DNA of 64,000 nucleotides from NCBI GenBank assembly GCA_002813895.1, contig CP024912.1, forward strand, positions 1,922,001-1,986,000, written 5' to 3'. This stretch comes from Cyanobacterium sp. HL-69 (GTDB lineage: Bacteria; Cyanobacteriota; Cyanobacteriia; Cyanobacteriales; Cyanobacteriaceae). Below the pieces are notes generated by a model that ran no database searches, was not told the origin of the DNA, and saw only the letters and a list, made by a program, of their open reading frames with translations. Positions 4,773 through 60,237 of this stretch are shown here, one piece after another. The first letter of the stretch is position 1. Each line of letters starts with the position of its first letter. Position numbers and translations under genes: made by a program.

Positions 4773-5063
4773 TTAAGCTCCTGCGGCGATCGTTTCGGCT
4801 CCTAGTTTTACCTCGATACCTTTGATATGTCTTACTAGCCAATGGGCTAATTCTTGATGGATTTGAAGGGCGATCGCGCAGCGCCACTTTGTGATCGCAC
4901 TTTGTTGTTCAGGATTTTCTCGGTACTTAATTTGATACTTTTTGATGGTATCTAAAAATATAGCATCGGCTAAATCATTGATGGCATGAATTAACTCTTT
5001 ATGATGAGTGTCAATGATTTTTACTCCAGTTTTCAAGGATTCGTTAAGTTCATATCTTTCCAT
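4773..5063 (-). CDS. Degenerate hemerythrin-like protein
   Basis: A 96-residue protein whose ends match bacteriohemerythrins: GVKIIDTHHKELIHAINDLADAI at the start and LAHWLVRHIKGIEVKLG near the end. Normal bacteriohemerythrins are about 130 residues and bind two irons with five His and two acids. The central HFxxEE and HxxxH helices are missing here, and the final Asp after HI is Glu. The middle contains a HIP1-nested element encoding SAITKWRCAIA. An intact diiron oxygen site is therefore unlikely. It lies upstream of two bacterioferritin genes but on the other strand. It may be a decaying gene or a repurposed remnant. Confidence 0.6.
   Translation of the reverse strand: MERYELNESLKTGVKIIDTHHKELIHAINDLADAIFLDTIKKYQIKYRENPEQQSAITKWRCAIALQIHQELAHWLVRHIKGIEVKLGAETIAAGA
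4869..4901 (-). repeat. HIP1-nested 33-bp dispersed element, copy 2 (inside the hemerythrin-like gene)
   Basis: A near-identical copy of the element at 2538-2570, with the same orientation relative to its host gene. It begins GGCGATCGCGC and ends GTGATCGCACT. It is translated in another frame than copy 1, giving SAITKWRCAIA, which argues that the DNA rather than a protein motif was copied. Confidence 0.7.
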
Positions 5064-5476
5064 GGTTGTTTTCCTAAATTTGCTCTATTTCTCAATGTTC
5101 GCAACAAAAAAAACTCGTGAACTGGTTTTAAACAATTAGGGCTAATTAGGTTTTATTGTTGTCATTTTTTTTCTGTTTTAGGACTTTGTTGGTTATCACT
5201 GATGAAATTATTTTTAGGGTCAAAATAGGATAAATTGTTTTTGGTTAAATTAAATTTTTAGCAATAATATTTTTAATATTTTTTTTATGTTTGTTTATTT
5301 CGTTTATCACCATTGACTTTTATGGATTAAATCTAAGTATTTTGTCATGGAATCATTGTCAATAACTATTGTCAATAAGCAAGATTAATTGAGAGAGGCT
5401 ATATACATCTGAAGTTTTAACCTTGCTTTTTTATTGAGAATGGTATATGATGAAATGGTAACAGAGAGGTAAAAGT
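5064..5476. other. Intergenic region upstream of the bacterioferritin genes
   Basis: An AT-rich spacer between the divergent hemerythrin-like and bacterioferritin genes. It contains a direct repeat ATTGTCAATAA at 5355-5365 and 5368-5378, which could be a pair of regulator sites. A TATATG near 5443 is a possible -10 for the bacterioferritin operon. No gene was found. Confidence 0.4.
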
Positions 5477-5941
5477 ATGCAGGGAAATCAAGATGTTAAG
5501 GCTCAACTTAATACAGTCTTAAAGATTAAATTGACTGCGATTAACCAGTTTTTTTTACATGCTAGAATGTGCAAAAATTGGGGTTTAGATCGTTTAAATG
5601 GATATGAGTATAGTTACTCAATCAAGTTGATGAAACAGGCTGACAAAATTATTGAGCGTATTTTCTTTTTGGAAGGTTTACCTAATTTACAAGATTTGGG
5701 TAGTCTTTTGATTGGGGAGGATGTACCTGAAATTTTGGCTAATGATTTAACCCTTACTAGCAATATGGCGGAAAGTTTACGAGGTGCGATCGCCCTTAGC
5801 GAAAATCAACAGGACTATGTAACTAGGGATTTATTCCGAGATTTATTAGAAGAAGCCGAAGAGCAAATTGATTGGATTGAGTCTCAACAGTGGTTAATTC
5901 AAGAGTCAGGTTTACAGAATTTCTTACAGTCTATGATGTAG
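5477..5941 (+). CDS. Bacterioferritin, heme-binding type subunit (ferroxidase ligands lost)
   Basis: A 154-residue ferritin-like protein with the Bfr pattern INQFFLHARMCKNWGL and ERIFFLEGLPNLQDLG. In active subunits the diiron ligands are E18, E51, H54, E94, E127 and H130. Here the site equivalent to E18 is Lys (KIKLT), E51 and H54 are Leu and Gln (KLMKQAD), and H130 is Gln (EEQIDW). The Met that binds heme at the dimer interface (the M of KLMKQ) is kept. This points to a structural, heme-carrying subunit. It lies 63 bases before a second bfr gene with the opposite residue pattern, so the two probably build a mixed shell. The start has a good GAGAGG ribosome site. Confidence 0.85.
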   Translation: MQGNQDVKAQLNTVLKIKLTAINQFFLHARMCKNWGLDRLNGYEYSYSIKLMKQADKIIERIFFLEGLPNLQDLGSLLIGEDVPEILANDLTLTSNMAESLRGAIALSENQQDYVTRDLFRDLLEEAEEQIDWIESQQWLIQESGLQNFLQSMM

Positions 5942-6004
5942 GTAATGGAAGCATTTAATGGTTCTATTCGTAGATAGTTTTATAAAGATAATAAAGAGGA
6001 AACA

Positions 6005-6475
6005 ATGAAAGGTAGTAAAAAAGTTATCAAAGAGTTACAAAAGTTACTTCGTAGCGAGTTGTCAGCAAGGGATCAATATTTCACCCATTCTCGTATGTAC
6101 CAAGATTGGGGCTTAAATAAACTTTATGAACGCATTGACCATGAAATGCAGGATGAAACCCAACACGCAGACATGATAATTAAGCGTATCCTATTTTTAG
6201 AAGGTTCTGTGGATCTGGGAGATCAGGCTGATTTGAATGTGGGTAAAACCGTTCCTGATATGCTCAAAAAAGATCTTGAGTTGGAGTATGAGGTCATCGG
6301 TAATCTTAAAAGTGCGATCGCCCTTTGTGAAGAACAACAGGACTACGTCACCAGAGATTTACTCCGTCAGATGTTGGATGATACCGAGCAAGATCATGCA
6401 CACTGGTTAGAACAACAGTTATGGTTAATTGATAACCTTGGTTTACCCAACTACTTACAATCCCAAATGGGTTAA
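6005..6475 (+). CDS. Bacterioferritin, ferroxidase-type subunit (heme Met lost)
   Basis: A 156-residue bacterioferritin. The diiron ligands are all visible: Glu in [11 protein letters not shown], Glu and His in QDETQHADM, Glu in LELEYEVI, and Glu plus His in [10 protein letters not shown]. The residue that should be the heme-binding Met is Thr (DETQH). It therefore complements the preceding gene, which has the Met but lacks the iron ligands. Cyanobacteria such as Synechocystis also carry two such specialised subunits. An AGAGGAAAC ribosome site precedes the ATG. The stop overlaps the end of the convergent yjbQ gene by four bases. Confidence 0.88.
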
Positions 6476-6888
6476 TTGTTAATGTGAACTGCGATTTGGC
6501 GTAAGTGCGATCGCATCCTATGTTCCCAAAGGTAGATGCCTTGCCATGTTCCCAACAACAAATTACCCTGATTAACAGGAATAGTCAGGGAAGTATTAGT
6601 TAAAACCGAGCGAATGTGGGAGGGCATATCATCTGGTCCTTCTGCACTATGATAATATTCCGTAGCACTTTCAGGAACAAGTTTATTAAAAAAATTACTC
6701 AAATCCGTCAATACATCAGGGTCAGCATTTTCTTGGATAATTAAACTAGCACTGGTATGCATGATAAACACAGTACATAATCCCGTTTTAATGCCCGACT
6801 CCCCCACCATGGAAGCCACATCACGGGTGATATTATGTAAACATTTACCGCTGGTTTTGATTTTAAGGATGTTTTGATGACAAGCCAT
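6472..6888 (-). CDS. YjbQ/UPF0047 family protein
   Basis: A 138-residue protein of the YjbQ (UPF0047) family, small barrel-like proteins linked to secondary thiamine-phosphate synthase activity. Family signatures are [20 protein letters not shown] in the middle and [17 protein letters not shown] near the end. The length is normal. It is convergent with the ferroxidase bacterioferritin and overlaps it by four bases. The physiological role in cyanobacteria is not established. Confidence 0.88.
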
Positions 6889-7049
6889 AGTATTAATTAA
6901 TTATTTGCTCAGAGTAAATAAATCTCCAAGAATAATTAATAAAGGTATTTACTCAAACAGTTTAATAGAAAAAGACCATAAAATCCATAATCATTCATTA
7001 CTCTAACATTGGTTACACAAACCTTTGGAATATTGCTCAAATAGCGAGA

Positions 7050-7055
7050 TATAAT
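7050..7055 (+). promoter_or_regulatory. Possible -10 box of lipA
   Basis: A perfect TATAAT lies about 90 bases before the lipA start. The best upstream hexamer, TTGGAA, is 19 bases away, which is long. An inverted repeat (GAGTAAATA at 6912-6920 with TATTTACTC at 6946-6954) lies further upstream. Weak but plausible. Confidence 0.35.
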
Positions 7056-7142
7056 TGTAAGCAAGAGCTTTGATTTTGCTTTGTGAAATGGAGAGTAGGA
7101 TCAGGGTTAGCAAACAATAGTTAAGACATAGCATAAAATACC

Positions 7143-8033
7143 GTGACTGTAAAACCAGAATGGCTGAGGGTAAAAGCTCCTCAAATACAAAGAGTTGGTA
7201 GCGTAAAAGATATTCTTAGGGATTTAAGTTTAAATACTGTGTGTGAGGAAGCCTCTTGCCCTAATATAGGTGAGTGTTTCAATGCTGGTACTGCCACTTT
7301 TTTGATTATGGGGCCAGCTTGTACCCGTGCTTGTCCTTATTGTGACATTGACTTTGAAAAAGTACCCAAGGAATTAGATTCCACTGAGCCTTTAAGGTTG
7401 GCAGAAGCGGTTAAACGTCTCAAACTTAACCATGTGGTAATTACTTCTGTGAATCGTGATGATTTGCCTGATGGGGGGGCTAGTCAGTTTGTGGCTTGTA
7501 TCGAGGAAACCCGTAAGTTATCTCCTAATACTACCATTGAGGTTCTAATTCCTGATTTGTGTGGTGATTGGGATGGTTTGGCAAAGATTTTAAGCGCTAA
7601 CCCAGAGGTTTTGAACCACAATACGGAGACAATACCCCGATTATATCGTAAGGTGCGCCCCCAAGGGGAATATGGGCGATCGCTCGAACTCCTTGCCCAA
7701 ACTAGAAAGTTAAACCCAAGTGTTTATACCAAGTCTGGAATTATGGTTGGCTTGGGGGAAAGTGATGAGGAAGTTAAACAAGTAATGCAGGATTTACGGG
7801 CCGTTGATTGTGATATTTTGACCATTGGGCAGTATTTACAACCTTCTTCCCATCATCTACAGGTAAAGGAATTTGTTACTCCTGAAATGTTTGATAGTTG
7901 GCGTGTTTATGGAGAGGAAATAGGATTTTTACAAGTGGTTTCAACCCCCCTCACCCGTAGCTCATATCATGCGGAGGAAGTGCGCAATTTGATGAAATTG
8001 TATCCTCGTACCATGGAAACGGTTAAGGGGTAA
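7143..8033 (+). CDS. lipA: Lipoyl synthase
   Basis: Radical-SAM enzyme that inserts two sulfurs into protein-bound octanoyl groups. The auxiliary cluster motif [12 protein letters not shown] lies near residue 34 and the radical-SAM motif CTRACPYCD near residue 60; [24 protein letters not shown] follows as in the family. The C-terminal RSSYHAEE gives the conserved Ser ligand of the auxiliary cluster. The 296-residue length is normal. Translation begins at a GTG. The next gene, an LpxB-like protein, starts 34 bases after the stop, so they may be co-transcribed. Confidence 0.95.
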
Positions 8034-53804: not shown

Positions 53805-54209
53805 ATGTCTAAATTTGCAACGACCATTTTTATCAGTAGCCTATTTTCACTATTTCTAGTCAGTACCCCCACTCTGGCTCAACAAAAATATCCTCTTATT
53901 TGTCGGTCTGGGGGACGTATTTCCATTAGAACACTGGCTGATGGAAGTGGAGAAATTCAAGGACTGAAACAAGGGCGAACCGCTGTCAACAGGAACAATC
54001 CAAACTCTTCTCTAGCTCCAGGGGAATGTGGATGGGAAGACAGAGCGATGAATAGTAACGAACCCACTACAATTTGTTACAGCAATGTTGCTGCTTTTAA
54101 CATAACACCCATAACAACAATTATTGAAAATTTAAACTATCGTGGTGCTGGGGTTGCCAGATACCTTGTACACAACGACACAAGTAACCGCTGCATGAGA
54201 GTTAATTAG
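53805..54209 (+). CDS. Secreted four-cysteine protein, paralog A
   Basis: A 134-residue protein with a signal peptide MSKFATTIFISSLFSLFLV ending near LAQQ. The mature part has the pattern LICRSGG, then LAPGECGWEDRAMNSNEPTTIC and a final RCMRV, so four Cys likely form two disulfides. The next gene has the same order of motifs. I do not recognise a named family, and no enzyme motif is visible. It is probably periplasmic or exported. Confidence 0.75.
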   Translation: MSKFATTIFISSLFSLFLVSTPTLAQQKYPLICRSGGRISIRTLADGSGEIQGLKQGRTAVNRNNPNSSLAPGECGWEDRAMNSNEPTTICYSNVAAFNITPITTIIENLNYRGAGVARYLVHNDTSNRCMRVN

Positions 54210-54242: not shown

Positions 54243-54755
54243 ATGTTCCAAAACTATTTGCAAAAGTTTAGTCTTACTCTTCTTTTAAGTGTAATGACTG
54301 CTCCTCTCAACATTACTTTATCCCATGCCCAACCTCAAAGCTATGAATTAATTTGTCGAGGTGGAGGTGCTTGGCTAGTAACGACGGGGGATTTGAATAC
54401 CGTGACAGAAAGGGGAAGACAATATGTATATGCTCCTGTTCGTGCTAGATTTGCCCCCGGTAATCCTAATATTGATCGCAACAGTGCTGATTTTGTTAAT
54501 GCTTCTCCTAATGTAAAAGCTTTTCTGGTGCAACAAGCCCTAGCACCGGGAGAATGTTCATGGATTGACCGAGGAATGCGAAATGGTGAGCCATCAATTC
54601 TGTGTGATGTTACGGGGAAAAGTAGTGATGTGAATGCGATTCGTTACATTAATTTTATTTCTCGAAGTGAAGCCAGAGCTCGTTTGATGGTTTATAACGA
54701 TAATGGTCAATGTCTCAGGGTTACGAGTTATGAAAATTTAGGAAGTGGCTTTTGA
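54243..54755 (+). CDS. Secreted four-cysteine protein, paralog B
   Basis: A 170-residue relative of the preceding gene, 34 bases downstream. It starts with signal peptide MFQNYLQKFSLTLLLSVMT ending near SHAQ. It shares ELICRGGG, LAPGECSWIDRGMRNGEPSILC and QCLRV with paralog A, and has about 35 extra residues in the middle (VYAPVRARFAPGNPNIDRNS). Local duplication is likely. Function unknown. Confidence 0.75.
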   Translation: MFQNYLQKFSLTLLLSVMTAPLNITLSHAQPQSYELICRGGGAWLVTTGDLNTVTERGRQYVYAPVRARFAPGNPNIDRNSADFVNASPNVKAFLVQQALAPGECSWIDRGMRNGEPSILCDVTGKSSDVNAIRYINFISRSEARARLMVYNDNGQCLRVTSYENLGSGF

Positions 54756-54941: not shown

Positions 54942-54968
54942 AAAAAATCCCCTCTAATAAAGGAGGGG
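54942..54968 (-). terminator. Terminator of the PAP-like operon
   Basis: On the minus strand CCCCTC (54968-54963) and GAGGGG (54954-54949) pair around an eight-base loop, followed by A and six T. It lies 26 bases after the last gene of the operon. Confidence 0.85.
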
Positions 54969-54994: not shown

Positions 54995-55762
54995 TTAAGA
55001 AAACAACTTTGTGCCGATCAACATTTTGCCATTGCTACCATTACCATGGGAACCTATTTCATGGACATTTTTACTCATTTCTCTGGCTTGGTGATAACTG
55101 TCGATTTCACCTTTTTCAAAATATAACAAAGATGCCTTGCGTAAATCATCCACCGCTTTTTGCTTCGCTCCAGAATCTAAGTATAAAATACCTCTCTTGT
55201 GATAGGCTTCGGCATAATCACCATCTTTTTTGATAGCTTCAGTATAATCGGCGATCGCCCCTGAGATATTACCCAATTTACTATGACTGTTGCCCCTTTC
55301 ATAGAAGAAACTAGCCGAATCAGGCTTAACCCGTAACTCTTGGGATAAAATTTCTACCTGTCGTAAATTACTAACAATCTCTTTTATCTCCTTAGTTTCC
55401 CCATTCAAAGCACTAACATTTTGGTCTAAACTATCCTTAACATTGTTTAAACGCTCATTAAAGCCTAGTTTCAAATCCTCTATCTGATTACCAAAATCAG
55501 CCTTACCCATCACCATCGCCTCCTTCAATTCCCCATGATTAGCTTCCACCATAGTATATAGAGACTCTATTTTTTGTTGTTGAGCATTAAAAGCGCCAAT
55601 CAATCTTTCCTCCGACTGCTTACGGCTAAAAACATTACAACCAACCCCCACCGTAGAAGCCACCGATAAAGGAATGATTTGACCAGTAACCGCAGAGGCG
55701 ATCGCCCCTAAAGCTGTGACACCCAAACCCACATAACCGAGCATATCAACTTGCTTATCCAT
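54995..55762 (-). CDS. Membrane-anchored TPR protein (Slr0151-like)
   Basis: A 255-residue protein, last gene of the operon. Residues 8-45 form two hydrophobic stretches (MLGYVGLGVTALGAIASAV; IIPLSVASTVGVGCNVF), followed by a coiled-coil-like part around residues 60-125 and two TPR units (SFFYERGNSHSKLGNISGAI; AEAYHKRGILYLDSGAKQKA). Position and layout match Slr0151, a Synechocystis TPR protein of photosystem II repair, which is longer. Assignment rests on synteny. Confidence 0.65.
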   Translation of the reverse strand: MDKQVDMLGYVGLGVTALGAIASAVTGQIIPLSVASTVGVGCNVFSRKQSEERLIGAFNAQQQKIESLYTMVEANHGELKEAMVMGKADFGNQIEDLKLGFNERLNNVKDSLDQNVSALNGETKEIKEIVSNLRQVEILSQELRVKPDSASFFYERGNSHSKLGNISGAIADYTEAIKKDGDYAEAYHKRGILYLDSGAKQKAVDDLRKASLLYFEKGEIDSYHQAREMSKNVHEIGSHGNGSNGKMLIGTKLFS

Positions 55763-55796
55763 AATCTTAAAAACCTTATTTCAAATAAAAAATAAA

Positions 55797-56249
55797 TTAA
55801 ACCAACACCGCACAATTAAGCTCAAAAACAGGAATAGCCAACTTAGCCTCCTCAGGAGTCAAAAACTCACTAATCACCTTGAGAAGTAGATCATAAGTGT
55901 CAATATTATCATCCTCAAACTTATAAGCCTTAGAAATAGTTTGAAACCAGAGCAACATATTAGTACGTAAACGCTCCATATCATCAAACAACAAAGCCGC
56001 CGCCGAATAACGCAACAAATCAACCATATCACGCTTACAAGTTACATAATAATCCTTAAACTCAGGATTACGTTTTTGCTTACCCACCTTCACCGCCTCC
56101 ATAATCTCATCCGCCCCATCCCTAATTTTCATATAGGCACTCATGCGTAAATCTTTGGTCTCAAAATAATTGTCCAAAAATCTTAACTCGTAATCCTGTG
56201 CATAACGTCCATCAGCCTCAAGAGTCAAATCCGCAAATTGTTTTAACAT
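55797..56249 (-). CDS. Phycobiliprotein-like protein (Slr0149-like)
   Basis: A 150-residue globin-fold protein. LEADGRYAQDYELRFLDNYF is followed by YYVTCKRDMVDLLRYSAAALLFDD, matching the bilin-binding CxRDM helix of phycobiliproteins with its Cys in place, and SEFLTPEEAKLAIPVFE. A second Cys lies at the end (ELNCAVLV). It is shorter than normal phycobiliproteins at the N-terminus. It is the next-to-last gene of the operon. Bilin binding is possible but unproven. Confidence 0.7.
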   Translation of the reverse strand: MLKQFADLTLEADGRYAQDYELRFLDNYFETKDLRMSAYMKIRDGADEIMEAVKVGKQKRNPEFKDYYVTCKRDMVDLLRYSAAALLFDDMERLRTNMLLWFQTISKAYKFEDDNIDTYDLLLKVISEFLTPEEAKLAIPVFELNCAVLV

Positions 56250-56273
56250 AATAGCAACTCCTTTTGTTTTAAT

Positions 56274-56816
56274 CTAAATAACATCTTCAGTTTGGGCAAG
56301 ATACTGATCAACCTCACCCTTAGTATTTTGTAGCTGAGAAATCATCGAACGAGTAATCAACTTACCCTCCTCCACCAAGATTTTGCCAGAAATAGGGTGA
56401 AGGATATTTTTCTGAGCGCGTCTGCCAATCAAAGCATCCACATCATCAATTTGGCTCAAATACATCCCCGAAGGTAACTCAACCACCACCCCTTCGCCGA
56501 TAACCCTAGCCTGACAAGCAAGACGAGAATTTGTCTTACAAGTAGTAATCACCTCCAGAGTTCTTTTTTCCCGACGATTGAGGGGCGATAAACTGTCCAT
56601 ACCCTCCTTAATGTAAACGTGACAAGTGGAACACATTCCCCGTCCCCCACACTCTTGCATCACATCCAAATCATTTTTTAGCAAACCAGATAACACATTA
56701 TCATTAGTTTGAATTGCTGTTTCTGTGCCGATAGGATCTAACTTGATTGTTTTTGCCACAACTTTTAAATAAACCTCTAAAAACTCAATTACAAATATCT
56801 TTTTATCTTGACTCAC
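56274..56816 (-). CDS. [2Fe-2S] ferredoxin-like protein (Slr0148-like)
   Basis: Up to 180 residues. The cluster motif is CGGRGMCSTCHVYIKEG, with a fourth Cys in RLACQARVIG; the Cys spacing is the adrenodoxin-like form rather than plant-type PetF. The C-terminal third (ALIGRRAQKNILHPISGKIL) is an extension. The open frame begins at GTG 56816, but a GTG at 56757-56759 (giving AKTIKLDPIGTETA) starts where the domain begins and may be the true start. It is in the middle of the operon. Confidence 0.8.
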   Translation of the reverse strand: MSQDKKIFVIEFLEVYLKVVAKTIKLDPIGTETAIQTNDNVLSGLLKNDLDVMQECGGRGMCSTCHVYIKEGMDSLSPLNRREKRTLEVITTCKTNSRLACQARVIGEGVVVELPSGMYLSQIDDVDALIGRRAQKNILHPISGKILVEEGKLITRSMISQLQNTKGEVDQYLAQTEDVI

Positions 56817-56826
56817 AGAAAAAAGA

Positions 56827-57501
56827 TTATAAACTGGTCATCTCACTACGAGAAAGCCGTTCCATAATAGTAGGGTGATCATGTCCTTCCTCTAACCATC
56901 CTTCCGTTAGTTTGATTCTTTCTGCCAAACCAATGACAAAATAATTAGCCTCAGCCCCCATAGACTCACAGCTAGTTTGTACACAGCCCAAATCTTGCCC
57001 CGTCAACTGACTAAAGAAAGAGCTTAAAATTCCCGCTTCGGGTTGACAAGAAAAATGTTTATCTTTAGGGGCTGCTGCCGCAAAAGGAGAATTAACAGTT
57101 TTCACCACAATAAAACCTTGGGGATAATAATCAAAATCAAATTCTGCTACCCCCCAACCATGGGTTTTCCAACATTGTTTGAGGCAACTAATAAACTCCG
57201 CCATCTCCATCTGAGAAAGGGGACGCTCATAATATTCGCTCACCTCACCAATAAAGCGACGGTAAAAACTTTTGCCCCACCAACGACCACAGTTATGGAG
57301 AACTACACTAGAAGCCTGTCCAATTTCCTCCTCCAAACCGTCATAAATACCCTGTAAGAGTACCTCTGGCAGCGCAATTAAACGAGAACCTTGGCGGGTT
57401 TCCAATAACCCTAATTCAAAGTCACCTTGTACATAGGCATCAGGGGAAAAGTAATTACCTTTTAACGGTTTTTTTTCGACTAAATCTGCAATAGAAATCA
57501 T
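56827..57501 (-). CDS. V4R-domain protein (Slr0147-like)
   Basis: I choose the ATG 57499-57501 (MISIADLVEKKPL) because GGGAGA stands well before it; an in-frame ATG exists at 57516. The V4R (4-vinyl reductase) domain covers most of the protein, with GIYDGLEEEIGQASSVVLHNCGRWWGKSFYRR and the end CVQTSCESMGAEANYFVIG. In the other V4R protein of the operon this end has a third Cys; here it is Tyr. Such domains bind small molecules, perhaps tetrapyrroles. Confidence 0.78.
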   Translation of the reverse strand: MISIADLVEKKPLKGNYFSPDAYVQGDFELGLLETRQGSRLIALPEVLLQGIYDGLEEEIGQASSVVLHNCGRWWGKSFYRRFIGEVSEYYERPLSQMEMAEFISCLKQCWKTHGWGVAEFDFDYYPQGFIVVKTVNSPFAAAAPKDKHFSCQPEAGILSSFFSQLTGQDLGCVQTSCESMGAEANYFVIGLAERIKLTEGWLEEGHDHPTIMERLSRSEMTSL

Positions 57502-57533
57502 TAATTTATCTCCCATATCTAAAAAGTATTGTT

Positions 57534-58007
57534 TTAAGCCCTGACGGTATCTTTGACCAGATATTCCTTAGCTTGATTTAAGAATGGCTCTAAATCATTC
57601 ATCTGAGAAGCATTAAGGAAATTTTTTAATTGTGCAACTAACAGGGAATGAACAGCGGAGTCAATAGATTGAGACTCTCTAGCTTCGACAACGTCGGTTA
57701 GCCATTCCAAAAGGCGACGTTCCAGAAATTCAGGGTTATTAAGTAACATTGCCATGGCGCTATATCTAGTAATCAATAGCCAATGTTGCAAAGAAGTTTC
57801 CAGGGCTTTTTCTTGACTATCAGAAAATTTGGCTACCAATTTATCCGCTACTGTCTGGAAAATCTCAATTTCTTGATCCCTAAGAAGGCGATAGATTGCC
57901 ATTTTATTTTGAAGATTGTTGATGCAATTAGAAAAAGTTTCTAAATCATCGCTTTGTAAATAGTTGTACTCTGCTTCGTGGATCAGTTGTTGTAATTCTG
58001 GGTACAT
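57534..58007 (-). CDS. Phycobiliprotein-like protein without bilin Cys (Slr0146-like)
   Basis: A 157-residue helical protein. The segment TSLQHWLLITRYSAMAMLLNNPEFLERRLLEWL aligns with the phycobiliprotein core helix, but the bilin-binding Cys and the RD pair are absent (LQHW replaces CxRD). The only Cys is near the N-terminus in SNCINN. It may keep the fold for protein contacts only. It precedes the V4R gene by 18 bases. Confidence 0.65.
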   Translation of the reverse strand: MYPELQQLIHEAEYNYLQSDDLETFSNCINNLQNKMAIYRLLRDQEIEIFQTVADKLVAKFSDSQEKALETSLQHWLLITRYSAMAMLLNNPEFLERRLLEWLTDVVEARESQSIDSAVHSLLVAQLKNFLNASQMNDLEPFLNQAKEYLVKDTVRA

Positions 58008-58021
58008 AGTTTTATCCTTAG

Positions 58022-58453
58022 TTAAAATAGATCAGATAAATCATTCATTTTCAATTCCGAGAAGGTAGAAGTCGGGTTGTTTTGTCTTTTCTCTATAATT
58101 GGCTTTTGGGCAATACTTGTCTTAGTCTCTTGTATTTGCTCTCCTGCCCAAGGGAATCTTTGGAAAAAATCTCCTACTTTCATTTGTAAAGAAAGGTTGG
58201 TAATAGTCGATAAATCATCATTGTTAGTGTTGAGGTGGGAAGTATAGGCAACCATTTTTTTGATGCCCTTCCAGTTATGGTGAGTGAAAAATTCTTCTAC
58301 TCTTAAATTAAGGTTTGGAATAAAGTCATCTGCATTAATTAATTCTTGAGTGGTGATTACAGATGAGGGTTGATTTCTCTTAATACCACGCCAATTGGCG
58401 TTGGAGAAGAATTGCTCAACACTGATGTCAGAAAATGTTGGTGTTAAGCTCAT
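58022..58453 (-). CDS. Triple-motif protein with FF...W repeats (Slr0145-like)
   Basis: A 143-residue protein carrying three copies of a short motif: ISVEQFFSNANWRGIKRNQ, LRVEEFFTHHNWKGIKKMV and MKVGDFFQRFPWAGEQIQE. Spacers are polar and probably flexible. The motif (V-x-x-F-F-x4-W-x-G) probably serves as a binding peptide for the same partner. The family is not named to my knowledge. It lies 58 bases after the first V4R gene and 14 before the next. Confidence 0.7.
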   Translation of the reverse strand: MSLTPTFSDISVEQFFSNANWRGIKRNQPSSVITTQELINADDFIPNLNLRVEEFFTHHNWKGIKKMVAYTSHLNTNNDDLSTITNLSLQMKVGDFFQRFPWAGEQIQETKTSIAQKPIIEKRQNNPTSTFSELKMNDLSDLF

Positions 58454-58511
58454 GTAATTTTCCTGTTAGTTTGAGTGATTGGATATGTGAAGGGTTTATT
58501 TCAAAGGTTAA

Positions 58512-59228
58512 TTACTTAAGATATTCGCCATTAACTAATTTTTTCTGAATATCTTTTGCCCCAGCCCCTTCGTTGTGCCAGAAAGTAGCTGCATCAATGC
58601 GATCTTGTTTTCCTAGCAAAAACTTACAATAGGTTTCACCCATGGAATAACATTGAATTTCGATGCAGTTTAATTGTTTATTAATAAAACGGCTAAAAAA
58701 TCCAGCCATCAATCCAGCGTAGATGTGACATACGGGTTTACCCACGTCTCCGAGAGTACGGGCTACCGCAGAATCAAAGATATTAACGAACATAAAACCA
58801 TTTTTTTGCTCACTTAAATCCACATCCCAGTTTCCCCAACCTTGGGTAGTAAAAGGCCACCACCAAGCTTCCAAAACATAAAGTAAGTTCATATCATGAA
58901 CATCTTTGGGATATTCATATTCTTTTTGAAACCAATTGCAGAAAAAGTCAGCATCACGGACACCCCAAGCCTTACCAATGTTGTACATTACAACGCTAGA
59001 TGCGGGTCCTACTTCTTCTTCTAAACCTTCTATTAAACCAACGATAAAATCTTCGGTTACTAAAACATTACGAGATTCGTTCCAATCGGTAATATCTCCG
59101 TTAACGGTATCAAAGTGGAAAAAGTCTTCGATGGTATAGTGATCGTGTTTTTTAGGGTATTGATTTTTCCAGAGATTTTTGGAAATTTTTTCAACGATGC
59201 GATTAGGTTTTGTAGGGGTAAAAGTCAT
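58512..59228 (-). CDS. V4R-domain protein (Slr0144-like), first gene of the operon
   Basis: A 238-residue V4R protein. Typical segments are VGLIEGLEEEVGPASSVVMYNIGKAWGVRDADFF near residue 64 and NCIEIQCYSMGETYCKFLLG near residue 195, with three Cys of the domain. A high aromatic content (WWWPFTTQGWGNWDVDL) stands in the middle. It starts the minus-strand series. In Synechocystis the equivalent operon slr0144-slr0152 is linked to photosystem II assembly under high light. Confidence 0.78.
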   Translation of the reverse strand: MTFTPTKPNRIVEKISKNLWKNQYPKKHDHYTIEDFFHFDTVNGDITDWNESRNVLVTEDFIVGLIEGLEEEVGPASSVVMYNIGKAWGVRDADFFCNWFQKEYEYPKDVHDMNLLYVLEAWWWPFTTQGWGNWDVDLSEQKNGFMFVNIFDSAVARTLGDVGKPVCHIYAGLMAGFFSRFINKQLNCIEIQCYSMGETYCKFLLGKQDRIDAATFWHNEGAGAKDIQKKLVNGEYLK

Positions 59229-59409: not shown

Positions 59410-60237
59410 TTATTTTTTTAGTAAGGATTGAATAGTTAAACTTTTTTCTTCAATTATGTTGGGTAAATCCTGAACAATAAGGGAACATTTTCCCACAAAA
59501 GAGCTATTCCATTTTTCTAACCATTTAAGTTGTATGGTAGTTGCTTGATGGTTAAGGGAGCCAGTAAAAGTTACTTTACAATTTTTATCCATGGAGAATT
59601 GTTCTAGCCACTCTACATCTGGTCTTGATTGTTCAAAGTTTTTGGAGGTAATCATTCCCCCAAGGTAACGACTGGTAATTTTTGCTATTTCTTCAAAGTT
59701 GATGACTACGTCGGCAATGGTAATTTTGTGAGCCACAGTTCCCTCAAAGGAAGATATCACAGTCATTTTTAAACTTTCAGGGTCAAAGCCTTTATCAAAT
59801 CTAGTGGAATTATCATATACTGCTCCCCTAAAGTCGGCTCCTCCGATGTGAGTCCCATTGAGGAATGCACCGCACAAGTCAGCTTTGACAAAGTTTGCTT
59901 TGGTTACAAAGCTACCTGTCAGATAGGCTTCTTTTATGTTTGCTTTGCTCAAATCTGCTTTAATTAGATAGGCTTTGATAAAGTATGCTCCTTGTAAGTT
60001 AGCTCCTTTTAATTTTGTACCTGTTAAGTTGGCTTCGTTAAAGTAACAGTCTCGTAAGTCGGCTCTACTTAAATCTGCTCCTCTTAGGTCTGCATAGCTA
60101 AAGTCAGAGCCTCTAAAATTAGCTCCTTTTAAATCTGCATTTCTTAGGTCAATTCTTCTTAGTTGTAGTTTGGGGAAATCTCTTTCTCCCCAGTTATATT
60201 TGGCTTGTATATCTGCATTTACTGTCATTGCCACCAT
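59410..60237 (-). CDS. Pentapeptide-repeat protein
   Basis: A 275-residue protein. Residues 25-125 are A(D/N)LXX repeats (RIDLRNADLKGANFRGSDFS, YADLRGADLSRADLRDCYFN, ADFRGAVYD), a right-handed quadrilateral beta-helix. The last 110 residues form a separate domain (HKITIADVVINFEEIAKIT; CKVTFTGSLNHQATTIQLK). An AGGAGTC ribosome site lies before the ATG. It precedes the PAP-like operon by 181 bases and may share its control. The function is unknown. Confidence 0.85.
   Translation of the reverse strand: MVAMTVNADIQAKYNWGERDFPKLQLRRIDLRNADLKGANFRGSDFSYADLRGADLSRADLRDCYFNEANLTGTKLKGANLQGAYFIKAYLIKADLSKANIKEAYLTGSFVTKANFVKADLCGAFLNGTHIGGADFRGAVYDNSTRFDKGFDPESLKMTVISSFEGTVAHKITIADVVINFEEIAKITSRYLGGMITSKNFEQSRPDVEWLEQFSMDKNCKVTFTGSLNHQATTIQLKWLEKWNSSFVGKCSLIVQDLPNIIEEKSLTIQSLLKK

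Follow-up and report, generated by a model that had tools for sequence, protein, structure and literature searches.

A block of seven open reading frames (ORFs), all on the reverse strand at positions 54995-59228 of a 64,000-nucleotide stretch of the Cyanobacterium sp. HL-69 genome (contig CP024912.1, positions 1,922,001 to 1,986,000; this whole stretch is referred to as the window), raises the question of whether it is a reduced form of the Synechocystis slr0144-slr0151 gene cluster, as had been proposed from the sequence alone (the original prediction), and of what its products might do. The ORFs lie in the order originally given, and Pfam assigned their proteins, in that order, to V4R, no family, Phycobilisome, V4R, Fer2, Phycobilisome and TPR. 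They encode V4RA (58512-59228, slr0144 type; Pfam V4R 2.5e-21), a small multi-motif protein termed TRI (58022-58453, slr0145 position), the globin BBAG1 (57534-58007, slr0146 position; Pfam Phycobilisome 9.3e-07), V4RB (56827-57516, slr0147 position; Pfam V4R 4.3e-15), the [2Fe-2S] ferredoxin FES (56274-56816, slr0148 position, Fdx5 type; Pfam Fer2 1.6e-09), the globin BBAG2 (55797-56249, slr0149 position; Pfam Phycobilisome 7.1e-11) and a TPR protein of slr0151 type (54995-55762) with matches to TPR families and a hydrophobic N-terminal segment as judged by eye. Families and order match those of the pap operon, as predicted, and the block is very likely an ordinary copy of this known, poorly understood cyanobacterial pap/BBAG operon; since the cluster is a member of a published kind, the operon is not new. 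The observations of the original prediction were confirmed and its interpretation was partly supported.

The genes slr0144-slr0151 form an eight-gene operon which was named pap since its proteins stabilise photosystem II (PSII) intermediates (Rast et al., 2016; PMC4853703), and whose connection with PSII assembly goes back to 2008 (Wegener et al., cited in PMC4853703). The slr0144 cluster is down under iron depletion and oxidative stress, and the entire operon is up when lumenal PSII proteins are lost (PMC4853703). Loss of slr0151 is reported to lower PSII and to impair D1 replacement. Slr0147, Slr0149 and Slr0151 were found to fall in copper- or iron-poor cells (PMC8141849). Fdx5 and Fdx4 are the products of slr0148 and slr0150, respectively (PMC7363133), a gene annotated as apcA in Acaryochloris is slr0149-like (PMC6002478), and Slr0144 and a second V4R protein are treated in a 2026 preprint (PMC13174344). 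Compared by gene identities rather than by DNA, the window locus differs from pap in having neither slr0150 (Fdx4) nor slr0152 (SpkG) among its ORFs. It shares with slr0144-slr0152 the order V4R, small protein, globin, V4R, Fdx5-type ferredoxin, globin and TPR, the identities being partly taken from the literature.

Clusters of this kind have also been studied by Rockwell, Martin and Lagarias (2023; PMC10151467), who named the globins BBAGs and showed that Fe-S/V4R/globin clusters descend from clusters with pre-PcyA bilin reductases, usually with a heme oxygenase. In the cyanobacterial BBAG and pre-PcyA clusters described by these authors, one or two globins are accompanied by an Fe-S protein and a pair of V4R proteins, and the window likewise contains two different V4R proteins, an adjacent [2Fe-2S] protein and a globin distinct from the antenna phycobiliproteins. 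Unlike the pre-PcyA clusters, the window operon has no heme oxygenase or bilin reductase beside it, both being far away in the genome (heme oxygenase at C1:333519 and PcyA at C1:254312, with the operon near C1:1977000). Within this 3.3 Mb genome, which is 99.99% complete, V4RA and V4RB are the sole V4R matches.

A check of synteny had been proposed, and many related genomes do share this gene order, so that the arrangement is not due to chance. Among 80 loci examined for gene order, 78 V4RA genes were found (none in L060, which is cut by a contig end, or in L143), and a core locus was defined as V4RA with BBAG1 downstream (67/78 V4RA genes). L144 was counted as core on a weak 26-bit BBAG1 match just reaching the Pfam Phycobilisome cut-off, the near-identical L134 was left out of the count, and a gene termed absent is one absent from the fetched stretch, which was short for some contigs. 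V4RB followed V4RA-BBAG1 in 67/67 core loci. TRI was likewise present in all 67, 65 of them by script and two by follow-up: in L120 its overlap with V4RA was beyond the limit of the script, and in L106 the gene is split by an insert at 4900-7830 with a 629-aa ORF matching reverse transcriptase, group II intron maturase and HNH families. In a second set of 80 loci, overlapping the first, BBAG1 was present in 74 and TRI in 73 of those 74, L212 lacking it. FES and BBAG2 were both downstream of the core in 33 of the 67 core loci, both nearby on the opposite strand in 10 and both upstream in five; only FES was nearby in eight, neither in nine, and two loci had another arrangement. A TPR gene lay near the core in 37/67 loci, including 31 of the 33 with FES and BBAG2 downstream. 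Because of these counts, V4RA-TRI-BBAG1-V4RB is regarded as the constant core of the operon and FES-BBAG2 as a movable second module.

The possibility that BBAG2 is missing where the core lacks it was rejected by a whole-genome search of 14 genomes: 11 had a strong match away from the core, while G008, G146 and G126 gave nothing better than weak matches. Among genomes of the same order or class without a neighbouring BBAG2 the strong match was found in 11 of 12, so that both globins tend to be kept, and FES adjoins the relocated BBAG2 in three of the 11. Of 120 genomes sampled from the order, 64 gave matches in the BBAG2 search, in part to other globins of the family; the fetched loci cover part of these matches, with the V4RA place in G092 left out. 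Mean identity to the window proteins, over 23 of the 27 loci outside the window's own family with FES and BBAG2 downstream (L112, L136, L138 and L146 left out), made V4RA the most conserved protein of the operon (69%), followed by FES (62%), V4RB (58%), BBAG2 (43%), BBAG1 (42%), TPR (31%) and TRI (28%).

Other arrangements were also seen. Five genomes of one family (f40; loci L125, L126, L127, L128 and L145) carry a second mini-cluster, V4RA-BBAG2-BBAG2, in which both globins have CRRD and TRI, V4RB and ferredoxin are absent. L135, L137, L139, L140 and L141 contain divergent FES-V4RA-globin-V4RB clusters with one Cys-bearing globin. In L134 and L144 a second, very divergent globin-like ORF lies between TRI and the Cys-bearing globin; that of L144 (7384-8049, reverse strand) is only just at the Pfam Phycobilisome cut-off. 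The V4RA frame found in L205 (9223-9603), which comes from the record of Crocosphaera watsonii WH 8501, spans just 126 aa, and the search for further core genes next to it found none.

TRI, the least conserved in sequence, is a constant and probably old part of the operon. No Pfam family covers it, and in the literature searched slr0145 appears in one paper, within a list. The window protein carries three copies of a 14-residue motif, x-V-x-x-F-F-x4-W-x-G, and ends in the conserved tail NDLSDLF. The name "triple-motif" given to it holds for the window but not for the relatives, which have one to four recognisable copies, or none by the search expression in the case of L103, where the tail nevertheless fits. 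A 12-column matrix was made from 141 distinct motif instances, with the L142 and L134 proteins not among them. Of the 1721 other ORFs of the loci that are 80-300 aa long, none reached two hits with this matrix; the L142 and L134 proteins had two hits each, and 0 of 1000 shuffles of either protein scored as well. Occurrence of the motif in other proteins of the genome was considered and rejected, as only the two matches in TRI, out of 21 DNA matches to FFxxxNW, have the motif context, and FFxxxNW is no commoner than its reversed control. The first start codon of TRI overlaps the V4RA stop by four bases in 52 of 65 measured loci; in the window the two are 58 bases apart. A weak resemblance is suggested between the N-terminal arm of V4RA and the TRI 6-mer, both having an EDFF-like segment: the comparison was above the 95% background in 54% of 79 V4RA rows, which are homologues and not independent, as against 3% of 75 V4RB rows and 9% of 69 FES rows. 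The proteins at the TRI position in the divergent clusters L135, L137, L139, L140 and L141 are possible counterparts; most of them have FL.GL-type segments, and four have an acidic tail. They were not accepted as proven homologues, there being one motif hit each in L135 and L141 and none in L137, L139 and L140.

TRI was also found in a cluster that includes heme oxygenase. At L142, in a presumably non-photosynthetic genome (G126) from a different class of the phylum, FES, V4RA, TRI, a Cys-less globin, V4RB and heme oxygenase form one run, with FES 30 bases before V4RA and the remaining genes having overlapping ends. Upstream on the other strand, with genes between, are a second globin and a ferredoxin-dependent bilin reductase, the reductase being 5 kb upstream. 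The V4RB of this locus was recognised by the V4RB profile made for this analysis (150 bits) and not by Pfam. L142 agrees with the ancestry already published, to which it contributes TRI. As only two of 18 genomes of this class had a V4R match, namely G126 itself and G146 (24% identical), the presence of TRI in a heme-oxygenase cluster rests on one locus. It should also be noted that a 130-aa protein with no Pfam family is encoded near the heme oxygenase (L142 11859-12251, forward strand) and ends in LSEFNWD, like part of the TRI motif.

The globins had been described as phycobiliprotein-like and are better described as BBAGs. A tree of 143 globins set the six phycobiliproteins of the genome apart (support 100/100) from a BBAG1 clade of 66 rows (98/94) and a BBAG2 clade of 60 rows (100/100). 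The window globins fall outside the antenna clade and score far below the apcB cut-off. The BBAG lineage is therefore apart from the antenna phycobiliproteins in this tree as it is in the published account (PMC10151467). One globin had been said to retain the bilin Cys and the other to have lost it. BBAG2 does carry CKRD at C71, and in BBAG1 SLQH replaces CxRD with no bilin Cys; it is the word "retained" that is doubtful, as the position toggles between Cys and Trp. None of the BBAG1 rows has C-x-R-D, and six have a Cys with His replacing the Asp. Among 78 BBAG2-type rows, a set without three divergent globins, 45 have Cys at the attachment position, 32 have Trp and one has Phe, and the Asp three residues past it is kept in 77; in the second locus set (n = 57) Cys was found in 37, Trp in 14 and another residue in six. 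Relocated BBAG2s have Trp in 11/11 cases. The Trp and Cys codons are one base apart, with TGG in L101, TGC in its close relative L100 and TGT in the window.

A quick tree, made without bootstraps and with the attachment column excluded (L142_34, L063_17 and L068_65 left out, and the Phe row uncounted in changes), required at least six Cys/Trp changes, at least four of them forced by well-supported branches. Trp is found on the branches that split off first within the 71-row BBAG2 group, and the Cys of the window BBAG2 may therefore have been regained; given seven Cys-bearing outgroup rows, repeated loss of Cys would be the alternative. Since the Cys toggles with Trp and all eleven relocated BBAG2s have Trp, covalent bilin attachment is not essential everywhere and, judged from these residues, is dispensable at the CxRD site in many lineages. 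This switch, the constancy and likely age of TRI and the two-module layout are the new points in a system that is itself known; none of the three was found in the literature searched, which did not include the supplement of Rockwell et al. showing BBAG motifs.

The two V4R proteins had been distinguished by three Cys in the first and two in the second. This holds for the canonical zinc-site Cys (C167, C193 and C201 in V4RA; C157 and C183 in V4RB) but not for all Cys, as V4RA has four that are invariant in 20/20 rows and V4RB has six that are conserved. In V4RA, C167, E190, C193 and C201 were kept in 21/21 rows including the distant L142, in which C188 is not kept, and they align with the zinc ligands of PoxR and MopR, three Cys and one Glu, a set which binds zinc in phenol-sensor V4R domains (PMC10715001). 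By its residues, V4RA has the three-Cys-one-Glu pattern of these sensors and V4RB, with C157, Q180, C183 and N191 at the zinc-site positions, does not. V4RB as mere decay was ruled out by its own conserved Cys, three of the six being kept in 21/21 rows and three in 19/21; apart from the zinc-site positions these include C76 and C115 (21/21) and C111 and C178 (19/21). An intact and a degenerate member had been proposed for both the V4R and the globin family, and each family does have one member with the canonical site and one without; the term degenerate does not suit V4RB.

Similarity to the sensors extends to profile and structure. The V4RA profile detected the sensor domains of PoxR (0.0029) and MopR (0.0088), and the V4RB profile detected no sensor domain at 0.1. 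In Foldseek, a model of V4RA (predicted local distance difference test, pLDDT, 69) retrieved the sensor domains of PoxR, MopR and DmpR first, and a model of V4RB (pLDDT 72) retrieved the same sensors followed by BcsD (E about 3e-05), the vinyl-4-reductase-family protein MJ1460 and TRAPP-type subunits. The fold is shared with MopR, PoxR and DmpR, together with the zinc positions in V4RA, whereas the operon lacks the regulator output domains, the phenol His/Trp dyad is replaced and V4RB does not have the full zinc set. The likeness of the V4RB model to BcsD of the BcsD-BcsH filament is to be taken as structural analogy only.

FES keeps C56, C62, C65 and C101 in 21/21 aligned rows and has a conserved C-terminal tail; NCBIfam fdx_isc matched it below the cut-off of that family. 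The petF-like gene and the kinase are absent from the ORFs of the locus, as originally stated. An SpkG-like kinase (595-aa frame, C1:2032201) lies approximately 51 kb from the operon, its kinase domain showing 47% identity and 272 bits to the operon-linked kinase of a relative, with the next kinase of the genome at 88 bits. The best match in the genome to a relative's operon-linked small ferredoxin showed 52% identity, the same level as unlinked ferredoxins in other genomes searched. The description of the operon as reduced is too strong. A second small ferredoxin is nearby in 12/67 core loci, a same-strand kinase is within 9 kb in seven, and a kinase is directly after TPR in four (labels from short sequence patterns and then Pfam, with Fer2 in 12/12 and a kinase domain in all four TPR-following kinases). 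The absence of petF and spkG is thus common over the core loci and is no special feature of this operon.

For the function of the operon, the explanation tentatively preferred, at a little under an even chance, is a V4R/globin scaffold which holds a tetrapyrrole near PSII with TRI as a multivalent linker. V4RA and V4RB would pair up into a V4R-fold dimer, in the way that MopR and DmpR each pair with a second copy of themselves, and in this dimer V4RA would keep a structural zinc and its tryptophan-rich segment (WWWPF..QGWG.W) may line a pocket. BBAG1 and BBAG2, as non-antenna globins, would be the second half of the complex and hold the tetrapyrrole, possibly a bilin, a precursor of chlorophyll or one of its breakdown products. 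This binding need not be covalent, because what stays constant in BBAG2 is the Asp of CxRD and not the Cys. TRI, whose translation usually follows directly on that of V4RA, would tether several V4R/globin units through its one to four short aromatic motifs, the Fdx5-type ferredoxin may feed electrons to the bound ligand or report redox state, and the TPR protein would bring the assembly to PSII. The complex would have been inherited from a heme-oxygenase/bilin-reductase cluster and re-used in PSII assembly and repair. Bilin binding has been shown for BBAG-1, -2 and -3 proteins of other bacteria (PMC10151467). If a tetrapyrrole is indeed held by the core, PSII biogenesis would be connected through it with the origin of bilin metabolism. 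The pap role becomes directly testable through the zinc site of one V4R protein, the natural Cys/Trp switch in BBAG2 and the constant four-gene core, and the little-noticed small motif protein TRI also occurs in a heme-oxygenase-bearing cluster.

A number of points weigh against this scaffold. BBAG functions are not yet known according to Rockwell et al., who also note that the PSII role may stem from the neighbours slr0150-slr0152, and no ligand is reported for a cyanobacterial BBAG in the available part of that account (PMC10151467). BBAG1 has no bilin motif, a BBAG2 with Trp may bind no bilin at all, V4RB is without two zinc ligands, and V4RA has Y117 and F147 at the positions aligned with the His/Trp dyad that anchors phenol in MopR. 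The V4R structure models are modest at pLDDT 69 and 72. The separation of FES and BBAG2 from the core in some genomes weakens the case for a single fixed complex. The function is also dispensable, given that no more than 56 of the 386 genomes sampled across the phylum gave a V4RA match.

In one alternative, the V4R/globin/ferredoxin part would have no direct role at PSII and the phenotypes would come only from TPR, Fdx4 and SpkG, the core being engaged in, for example, heme or bilin turnover. This alternative, the one raised by Rockwell et al. (PMC10151467), is considered rather unlikely. In its favour, the core often stands alone, with neither FES nor BBAG2 nearby in nine and no nearby TPR in 30 of the 67 core loci, and L142 pairs it with heme oxygenase and bilin reductase. 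It sits poorly with the presence of TPR at 31 of the 33 core loci that have FES and BBAG2 on their downstream side and with the rise of the entire operon in mutants of lumenal PSII proteins (PMC4853703). A sensor, in which V4RA and V4RB would perceive a small molecule (an aromatic or a tetrapyrrole) in the manner of DmpR and MopR, the Cys-bearing BBAG would be a light or redox antenna, the ferredoxin would report redox state and SpkG-type phosphorylation would be the output, is thought unlikely. The closest solved structures are indeed the sensor domains of DmpR, MopR and PoxR, the SpkG-like kinase is still in this genome, and Fd5 phosphorylation is described in a review as absent in Synechocystis without SpkG. 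However, Pfam gave no output or DNA-binding domain in the operon, the kinase directly follows TPR in only 4/67 core loci, and the BBAG-1 protein tested was photoinactive and the BBAG-2 proteins photoinert (PMC10151467). A chromophore-loading factor for phycobilisomes, either lyase or chaperone, would fit the relationship of the globins to phycobiliproteins and the CxRD in one of them, but it is very improbable: Pfam found no lyase domain in the seven proteins and the Cys is absent from BBAG2 in 33/78 rows. A further point against it is the absence of the system from Nostoc punctiforme (PMC10151467). Nostoc does have phycobilisomes.

Within the tetrapyrrole-holding scaffold, a more specific and decidedly doubtful idea is that TRI is the string of a beads-on-a-string arrangement. 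TRI would be probably disordered and translation-coupled, its one to four aromatic motifs docking on V4R/globin units by imitating the N-terminal arm of V4RA, and the globin pocket would work with or without a covalent bilin. Such a tetrapyrrole-carrying scaffold, of a type not yet known, would have arisen as a device of the bilin-making cluster and been carried into PSII biogenesis. BcsH is a small partner threading BcsD beads. The idea is prompted, but not established, by two likenesses, one between the V4RA arm and the TRI motif and the other between V4RB and BcsD.

Around the operon, a pentapeptide-repeat protein is encoded directly upstream of V4RA on the same strand (59410-60237) and is a possible neighbour of the transcription unit, its membership not being demonstrated. 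A similar gene is upstream of the core in 10/67 core loci, half of which (five) come from the family of the window itself. The terminator predicted after TPR is plausible as a hairpin with a T run (54949-54965, reverse strand), approximately 30 bases past the TPR stop; such sites as a class were not enriched over shuffles, with six in the scan and 4.4 expected by chance. Further downstream, on the forward strand, lie two adjacent small-protein genes (53805-54209 and 54243-54755), for whose products no Pfam family reached the cut-off. The two products have signal-like starts and shared LICR.GG and APGEC segments and are probably paralogues.

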